From an uncultured Mycoplasmatota bacterium (GTDB lineage: Bacteria > Bacillota_I > Bacilli_A > RF39 > UBA660): a stretch of DNA of 32,823 nt. Shown here one piece after another: positions 31,446 to 32,812 of this stretch. The translations under genes and the position numbers were made by a program. The DNA lies in assembly GCA_946498375.1 (NCBI GenBank), contig CAMMOI010000010.1, forward strand, positions 1 to 32,823. Direction: 5' to 3'. Numbering within the stretch: the first letter of the stretch is position 1; each line of letters starts with the position of its first letter. The notes beneath the pieces were generated by a model. That model did not search any database. It saw only the letters and a program-made list of their open reading frames with translations, and was not told the DNA's origin.

Positions 31446-31925
31446 TTATTCTGTTGTAGATTGTGATGATTGTGATGTTGAATTATAATCACCAACTCCT
31501 AATGCCTCATCAGTATCATTAGGATACGCTTTATTTGCTCCTCCTGATGTTGCTTGATAAGTTCCATTATGAATATTCCAATTATATACAACTCCAGAAG
31601 CTCCAGATGAAACAGTTATTGTATACTTAAGTCCTGCACTACCACCTTCAATATCTAACTTACAAGGTGAAGTACTTGAACAGTTATCTCCACTACCATC
31701 ATCCTTAAATGTCATTGTACTTGCATTTGAAGTAACTGCTTGCTCAGCATATTTTGTTTGAGCAGCTTTAAGTAAAGATAAAGCCTCAGTAGCAAACGAA
31801 TTTCTTCGTGCATTATTCATAATATTTAATACTGATGGTGCTGCCATTAACATTAATACAGCTAAAATAACGATTACAGCTAGTAATTCAATTAATGTAA
31901 AACCTTTTTTATTTAATGTCTTCAT
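31446..31925 (-). CDS. Type IV prepilin-like protein (ComGC/pseudopilin type)
   Basis: This 159-residue protein starts MKTLNKKG|FTLIELLAVIVIL: a basic leader, Gly before the prepilin peptidase cut, Phe at +1 and Glu at +5, then a hydrophobic helix to about residue 32 that forms the pilus core. The globular part (33-140) has one Cys pair in DNCSSTSPC that could form a disulfide, and several glycine-rich turns. The C-terminus is a Ser/Thr/Gln tail (TSQSSQSTTE). No assembly ATPase, platform protein or peptidase is in the window. Codons look less AT-biased than those of neighbours. SD AGAGGATT. It ends at its own terminator. Confidence 0.88.
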   Translation of the reverse strand: MKTLNKKGFTLIELLAVIVILAVLMLMAAPSVLNIMNNARRNSFATEALSLLKAAQTKYAEQAVTSNASTMTFKDDGSGDNCSSTSPCKLDIEGGSAGLKYTITVSSGASGVVYNWNIHNGTYQATSGGANKAYPNDTDEALGVGDYNSTSQSSQSTTE

Positions 31926-32220: not shown

Positions 32221-32577
32221 TTAATCCTCAAAAAATTTATTTAAAGGACGTGGTGTTAAAGGCGTTTTAATACTAGATGCCGAGGATGCATTTTTAGTTG
32301 TCAATTCTGAGATAAATCCTAAAGCTTTTTGGGCCGTATTTATATGTTTTTGAATTGAATTCATATCTACGTTTTTAACCATTTTACTAATACTATCTAA
32401 ACTCATATTACTCGTAGTTTTATCTTCTAAATACGTACTCCAAGCGTTTTGATCATCTCCATATATATCATAAATTTCATAAAATTTTTGCCAAGACATT
32501 TCGTTGTTTTTAACATACTTAATAAGCTCGGGGTGCAAGGAGGCAAATTTTTTAAATTCTTCCTTTTTATTATTCAT
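32221..32577 (-). CDS. ylbD: YlbD-like (putative coat protein) family
   Basis: This 118-residue protein starts at the ATG at 32577, five bases after AGGTGA; a GTG nine bases upstream lies inside that SD. It reads EEFKKFASLHPELIKYVKNN, then SWQKFYEIYDIYGDDQNAWS with the conserved tryptophans. A helical region (MVKNVDMNSIQKHINTAQKA) follows, then a proline/arginine end, TPRPLNKFFED, all in YlbD order. YlbD has been listed as a putative spore coat protein in Bacillus. The pair ylbD-ylbE is a Bacilli hallmark. It is divergent from the candidate small RNA at 32685. Confidence 0.82.
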   Translation of the reverse strand: MNNKKEEFKKFASLHPELIKYVKNNEMSWQKFYEIYDIYGDDQNAWSTYLEDKTTSNMSLDSISKMVKNVDMNSIQKHINTAQKALGFISELTTKNASSASSIKTPLTPRPLNKFFED

Positions 32578-32649
32578 ATCAATCACCTATTTTATTTTAT
32601 GAATAATAAATAAATAGTAGACTATAGTAAATATTTTAATTTTTCGTGT

Positions 32650-32678
32650 TTGCAATATGTAAAAAAGTATGCTATACT
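32650..32678 (+). promoter_or_regulatory. Strong sigma-A-type promoter of the candidate small RNA
   Basis: TTGCAA (32650-32655), a 17-base spacer and TATACT (32673-32678) preceded by TGC (extended -10). The expected start is at 32685-32686, exactly where the pairing stem of the RNA begins. Confidence 0.75.
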
Positions 32679-32684
32679 TTTGCT

Positions 32685-32766
32685 AGAACAGTTAAAGAAG
32701 TAATTAATATCAATCACATATGGGGTTTTGGTTAACTTATTTTTTACTTTAACAACTGTTCTTTTT
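32685..32766 (+). ncRNA. Candidate structured small RNA, about 80 nt, unknown class
   Basis: The predicted 5' end AGAACAG (32685-32691) pairs with CTGTTCT (32756-32762), which is followed by TTTTT. An inner helix TTAAAG (32692-32697) / CTTTAA follows after a CAA bulge on the 3' side. The 50-base apical region contains TGGGGTTTTGGTTAAC. No ORF with an SD is present. It is not a tRNA, and there is no SRP tetraloop/GGAAGCAGC element. It could be a trans-acting sRNA, or a terminated leader of a gene beyond the window; a second terminator at 32776-32812 would catch read-through. Confidence 0.55.
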
Positions 32767-32775
32767 ATAATCGAG

Positions 32776-32812
32776 TAGAGAAAATTAAATAGATTTTCTC
32801 TATTTTAATTTG
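32776..32812 (+). terminator. Rho-independent terminator downstream of the candidate small RNA
   Basis: TAGAGAAAAT (32776-32785) pairs perfectly with ATTTTCTCTA (32793-32802) around TAAATAG and is followed by TTTTAATTTG. There is no U-run in the minus direction. Confidence 0.8.

Follow-up and report, generated by a model that had tools for sequence, protein, structure and literature searches.

Two described systems come closest to the one proposed here. In the Alphaproteobacterium Sinorhizobium meliloti, the sRNA NfeR1 and the two-component regulator NtrBC form an experimentally shown double-negative loop, in which the sRNA pairs with the initiation region of the regulator mRNA and is in turn repressed, at its promoter, by the regulator, as set out in the available part of that paper (PMC10746234). 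In Bacillus subtilis, a member of the Bacilli like the organism studied here, RnaC/S1022 acts directly on the mRNA of abrB, an autoregulated transcription regulator; the conservation of target pairing was used there, and the available part of the paper states no indirect effect on the abrB promoter (PMC4366234). Since comparable circuits are known from experiment, the kind of system is already known. Our locus resembles NfeR1-NtrBC in that an sRNA is predicted to pair with the initiation region of a regulator mRNA, but it concerns an XRE pair in Bacilli, was predicted from sequence, and is likened by circuit and not by RNA sequence (PMC10746234). It differs from RnaC/S1022-abrB in its target family and is likened to it by description, again not by RNA sequence (PMC4366234). 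The literature searched, available in part, yielded no described sRNA for these uncultured gut Bacilli, and neither this sRNA, nor its target, nor the lineage was found described in it. We propose, with a probability of about two in three, that the locus encodes a stand-alone, trans-acting, base-pairing sRNA that would block translation of xreA, a small XRE repressor gene; overall this best explains the sequences compared.

The window, 32,823 nucleotides long, is the entire contig C10 of a draft genome (G000) of 37 contigs that is 68% complete, and the sRNA locus sits against its right end (Table 1). Promoter, transcript start, closing stem and T-run were all found where the original prediction had placed them. 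The predicted start, A32685, lies 7 nt past the -10 element and is the first base of AGAACAGTT, and the 9-bp closing stem runs into TTTTT. The pairing between AGAACAG and CTGTTCT also held, at a distance of 64 bases instead of the 65 claimed. The promoter was picked up by a promoter scan and is nearly invariant in all eight aligned sequences; a terminator scan with a loop limit of 8 was blank at the stem. By its sequence, then, the gene has both its own promoter and its own intrinsic terminator. The outer stem of the predicted hairpin would double as transcription terminator and display the conserved apical core. Upstream, after ylbD and a ylbE-like frame, the minus strand carries a prepilin-like gene (31446-31925; N_methyl, 1.4e-08), and similar frames occupy its position in several relatives.

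Table 1. Predicted and annotated features at the right end of the window.
Feature	Position	Strand	Remarks
sRNA promoter (predicted)	32650..32678	+	-35 TTGCAA 32650-32655; TG 32670-32671; -10 TATACT 32673-32678; spacer 17
sRNA gene (predicted)	32685..32766	+	predicted transcript of about 82 nt; homologue in 7/8 congeneric genomes
Closing stem, 5' arm AGAACAGTT	32685..32693	+	
Closing stem, 3' arm, and T-run (intrinsic terminator)	32754..32766	+	arm AACTGTTCT 32754-32762; T-run 32762-32766; equivalent stems of other sequence in relatives
Core block 1 AUAUCAAUCACA	32707..32718	+	predicted seed; complement of the xreA translation start; invariant 8/8
Core block 2 GGGGUUUUGG	32722..32731	+	invariant 8/8; without conserved complementary target
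Palindromic box TTTGCAATATGTAAA over the sRNA promoter -35	32649..32663	.	possible operator in common with the xreA/xreB promoter region
ylbD, divergent neighbour	32221..32586	-	GTG frame start 32586, ATG 32577; PF14071 YlbD_coat 2.7e-18
Repeat common to the ends of contigs C12 and C15	32769..32823	.	outside the sRNA gene; holds an inverted repeat

A DNA search of the nine genomes of the genus gave matches in seven of the eight others (G001 to G007), with E-values of 3e-15 to 6.6e-5 and 72-80% identity. The best match in G008 was 34 bases long (E 0.0016), lay elsewhere in the genome and was taken as chance; the ylbD/rpmF region, sought in G008 by a search without a control, was not found there. 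When the eight sequences were aligned, the promoter was almost invariant, two blocks, ATATCAATCACA and GGGGTTTTGG, were fully so at 2 to 6 bases from each other, and outside promoter and blocks all eight sequences varied. A peptide encoded within the sRNA was considered and rejected, the ATG in the core of the window's sequence being missing from the other seven.

Core 1 matches, base for base, the reverse complement of UGUGAUUGAUAU, which stands where translation of xreA starts in all nine genomes. The product of xreA, counted from the ATG, is an HTH_19 protein of 63-66 residues; the gene is flanked by a convergent gene, which we take to be ssb, and by xreB, a second HTH gene that is divergent. 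It is on contig C1 in the window's genome, and in G001 to G007 too sRNA and xreA are on separate contigs. The xreA/xreB pair, between ssb-like and mur-like genes, is outside evident prophage (L228 1226-1901; equivalents L184, L218, L227 and L230). We searched all nine genomes for the 11-mer complement of core 1, GTGATTGATAT, and obtained 21 hits. Eight were the sRNA genes themselves; nine of the 13 others were the xreA start, one per genome; of the remaining four, one was in ylbD of the window's genome and three were scattered. A reversed control pattern gave 14 hits versus these 13 outside the sRNA genes, so the hit count as such was not enriched. Across the nine genomes, no invariant run between -60 and +194 of xreA was longer than the one at bases -10 to +2 (13 bases; the next longest was 8), and of 64 third codon positions just 10 were invariant. 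Several of the genus genomes are close relatives, G006 to G008 among them, and nine genomes therefore represent fewer than nine independent cases.

About 16 bases separate the end of the xreA -10 box from the ATG, so the mRNA probably starts at or near the paired bases, lacks a strong Shine-Dalgarno sequence and would be nearly leaderless. Core 1 would pair with UGUGAUUGAUAU at the very start of this mRNA; with the weak ribosome-binding sequence and bases one and two of the AUG covered by the duplex, initiation of translation should be blocked. As core 1 is exactly antisense to the xreA start, the sRNA probably switches the xreA repressor off. The duplex was predicted at -15.6 to -21.4 kcal/mol, with a cost of 2.0 to 3.8 for opening core 1, and xreA gave the top-ranked duplex in all eight genomes among the 22-108 gene starts compared per genome, a set smaller than the whole genome. 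Shuffled sRNAs reached an equally long helix with xreA in 3-64 of 20000 trials; at that rate one genome alone would be unconvincing genome-wide, and it is the conservation of both partners that carries the case. In G008 the xreA site is present and no sRNA was found. Taken together, we consider the xreA start a likely site of action of core 1. That the RNA is made, pairs inside cells and represses xreA is our inference.

Outside the genus, the 11-mer was absent from all 28 XRE-homologue loci searched (best match 64% identity), six of which had an ssb-like gene nearby by a regular-expression test. Starts were left unplaced at seven of 30 such loci and misplaced at one; those that could be read mostly had ordinary ribosome-binding sites, and G102 also looked nearly leaderless. 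Among 30 loci, a narrow motif test matched an xreB-like gene only in the genus.

The same complementarity could arise if the sRNA had many targets bearing GUGAU-type ribosome-binding sites and xreA were merely the best match, and core 1 presumably resembles in part the 16S 3' tail AUCACC. The ylbD start of the window's genome does carry the same 11-mer (32576-32586, in that genome only), and the starts of rpmF and xreB were among the next-best duplexes in several genomes. However, the full 12 bases are kept in nine of nine genomes only by xreA, and the next-best duplexes were generally several kcal/mol weaker and involved differing genes. We regard a many-target sRNA as improbable.

Core 2 raises a different alternative. 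It is as conserved as core 1, and no conserved complementary site for it was found in the 30 of 42 places read in the genus genomes. Seven relatives, but neither G000 nor G001, carry its ten bases again in leaders of small genes for hydrophobic peptides. A structured RNA acting via a core-binding protein or ligand would account for such a pattern, the xreA match then being a coincidence or some other DNA site. That coincidence would have to strike the longest invariant run of xreA, at the start codon, in all genomes, and the xreA site is absent from other genera, as is the sRNA; the chance that this explanation is right seems slim to us. The peptide genes are multi-copy, encode about 23-33 residues and were seen around GGGGTTTTGG in G002 to G008 (e.g. 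L164 MRNLIVLLKEIIIIKILDILENIKE). At their loci (L164, L165, L166, L167, L172-L177, L180 and L183) the leaders share GGGGTTTTGG with the sRNA, and a direct repeat AGTGCTAT..GCATCTAC faces the genes from the other strand, with a terminator-like stem, GACGCC..GGCGTC, between; we take these loci to resemble Fst/par-type type I toxin-antitoxin loci. GGGGTTTTGGTTGATA was also seen in another repeated context after the hairpin GGAGCGCAATTGCGCTCC (L168, L169 and L181, in G007, G008 and G006), and the transposase frame near it in L168 is presumably IS1634-like.

The translational block of xreA by the sRNA may have a feedback arm: in a more tentative step, an XRE protein from the xreA/xreB pair would bind a shared box in the sRNA promoter and so give a double-negative loop. 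The 15-mer TTTGCAATATGTAAA is identical in six of eight sRNA promoters, and G006 and G007 have TTTGCAATTAGTAAA, one base outside the pattern. The palindrome was spotted by eye before being searched, and its degenerate form occurred at 21 sites in the nine genomes, one to four per genome, with 14 for the control; of these 21, the sRNA promoters account for six and the stretch between xreA and xreB for another six. Upstream of xreA, the best site was exact in six of nine genomes and had one mismatch in two, always at -91 to -93; that of G001 had three mismatches and was counted absent. In G002 the palindromes of the sRNA promoter and of xreA are the identical 15-mer. A box over the -35 would fit repression, and it may also serve ylbD on the opposite strand. 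A third palindrome site, kept in G006 to G008, was rejected as a candidate, being inside a coding frame in the two cases read. We suggest only tentatively, at rather less than even odds, that a double-negative loop is closed through the shared box. More doubtful still is a fuller, lambda-like scheme, genus-specific and outside prophage, in which xreA, xreB and the unlinked sRNA gene would share an operator, XreA would repress xreB and the sRNA, the sRNA would silence xreA by pairing at the 5' end of its mRNA, and core 2, which the leaders of the multi-copy type I toxin-like family also carry, might couple that family to this circuit.

It could also be argued that there is no gene here, only promoter- and stem-like AT-rich DNA conserved as a promoter or operator of ylbD, and the conserved box could indeed serve ylbD on the opposite strand. 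Chance was assessed by counting promoter, offset, stem and T-run together in 200 dinucleotide shuffles of the window, on both strands and by criteria picked post hoc. A 7-bp arm without the TG gave a comparable arrangement in 43 of 200 shuffled windows, as such a view would have it; requiring TG reduced this to 1/200, a 9-bp arm without TG to 7/200, and both together to 0/200. The arrangement thus beats chance only with the extended -10 or the complete stem in the count; counted in that way it is rare by chance, as the original prediction had held. The fold of 32684-32768 had an energy of -18.4 kcal/mol and a z-score of -4.33, with 0 of 200 shuffles equally stable; trimmed to 32683-32766, the z-score was -3.48 (1/200). 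Across the eight sRNA sequences the z-scores ranged from -1.56 to -3.85.

What stands against the absence of a gene is that conservation extends to both cores, which lie 29 to 53 bases downstream of the -10, and that the outer stem is retained in three types of different sequence: AGAACAGTT/AACTGTTCT in the window, GAGTTAAG/CTTAACTC in G001, and a longer form in the other six, whose sRNA bears an extra hairpin. Every type closes and ends in T residues. The original prediction had proposed to look for compensatory changes in the closing stem. Formal covariation was weak within the six long-form sequences, where both sides changed in 2 of 31 pairs and the covariation term was unfavourable (+0.53). 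Three unrelated stem sequences that all close are a stronger argument than formal covariation. Conservation upstream of ylbD, whose absence would have counted against the prediction, was present; the gene is kept beside ylbD in seven of the eight other genus genomes, with a closing stem that survives sequence change. The comparison argues strongly for a real sRNA gene at this locus, and its absence is very unlikely.

The element might also be read as the leader or attenuator of whatever gene follows, and the window leaves room for this in that its contig ends before the next gene. This reading has next to no chance of being correct: the next gene, to which the original prediction had looked for a decision, is rpmF, convergent on the opposite strand in seven of seven relatives, which excludes an attenuator in those seven. 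Lying between divergent ylbD and convergent rpmF in all seven, the element is a gene of its own, a stand-alone sRNA and not a leader. The compared genomes support the predicted gene, its conservation, the lack of a co-directional gene downstream in relatives and the conserved perfect complementarity.

A second stem-loop just after the gene had been read as a terminator insulating its transcription. The stem-loop is real (TAGAGAAAAT 32776-32785 / ATTTTCTCTA 32793-32802), yet it belongs to a repeat that recurs at the ends of three contigs, and in relatives rpmF occupies its place; insulation is thus unsupported, and this role was rejected. All three contigs terminate in this repeat, which carries the inverted repeat at its tip (C12 and C15 at L002 and L003); a mobile element probably interrupted the assembly here, the repeat being its end. 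A search for rpmF elsewhere in the window's genome, at 68% completeness, did not find it, and an insertion after the sRNA gene in this genome is likely.

The class of the RNA, unrecognised in the original prediction, was not recognised by Rfam 15 either: neither the window nor the seven relative loci gave a match at the gathering threshold, and the best sub-threshold hits (15-23 bits versus thresholds of 44-80) were at chance level, so assignment to a family was rejected. The exact core was found in four of 386 sampled family genomes, all of the same genus, of which the sample took in five of the nine members. A sequence-only model of promoter and core (R1) scored 63-89 bits in the genus; in the 386 genomes it had matches at E<=0.1 in 175, reaching at most 22 bits outside the genus among the matches listed. 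Those outside matches, many of them partial, were as a group judged to be noise. In a collection of species genomes the core pattern gave 17 loci, seven of them from this genus and the other ten apparently coding or chance, judged by context; viral contigs gave one match, by chance, and the phages searched gave none. Among 30 ylbD loci of other genera, a start-motif search found rpmF adjoining ylbD in none, and no core with up to two mismatches per block was found. The named records of the genus are MAGs of uncultured Bacilli, six of seven labelled 'Lapin', which would point to rabbit.

The sRNA and its target site co-occur within a single genus; the family's other genera, as far as examined, showed neither of them. 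This joint distribution makes the origin of the pair traceable. For uncultured gut Bacilli, the locus offers a concrete sRNA-target pair whose predicted seed can be tested; should the shared operator prove real, it would form a compact three-part switch that could be rebuilt in a laboratory strain.
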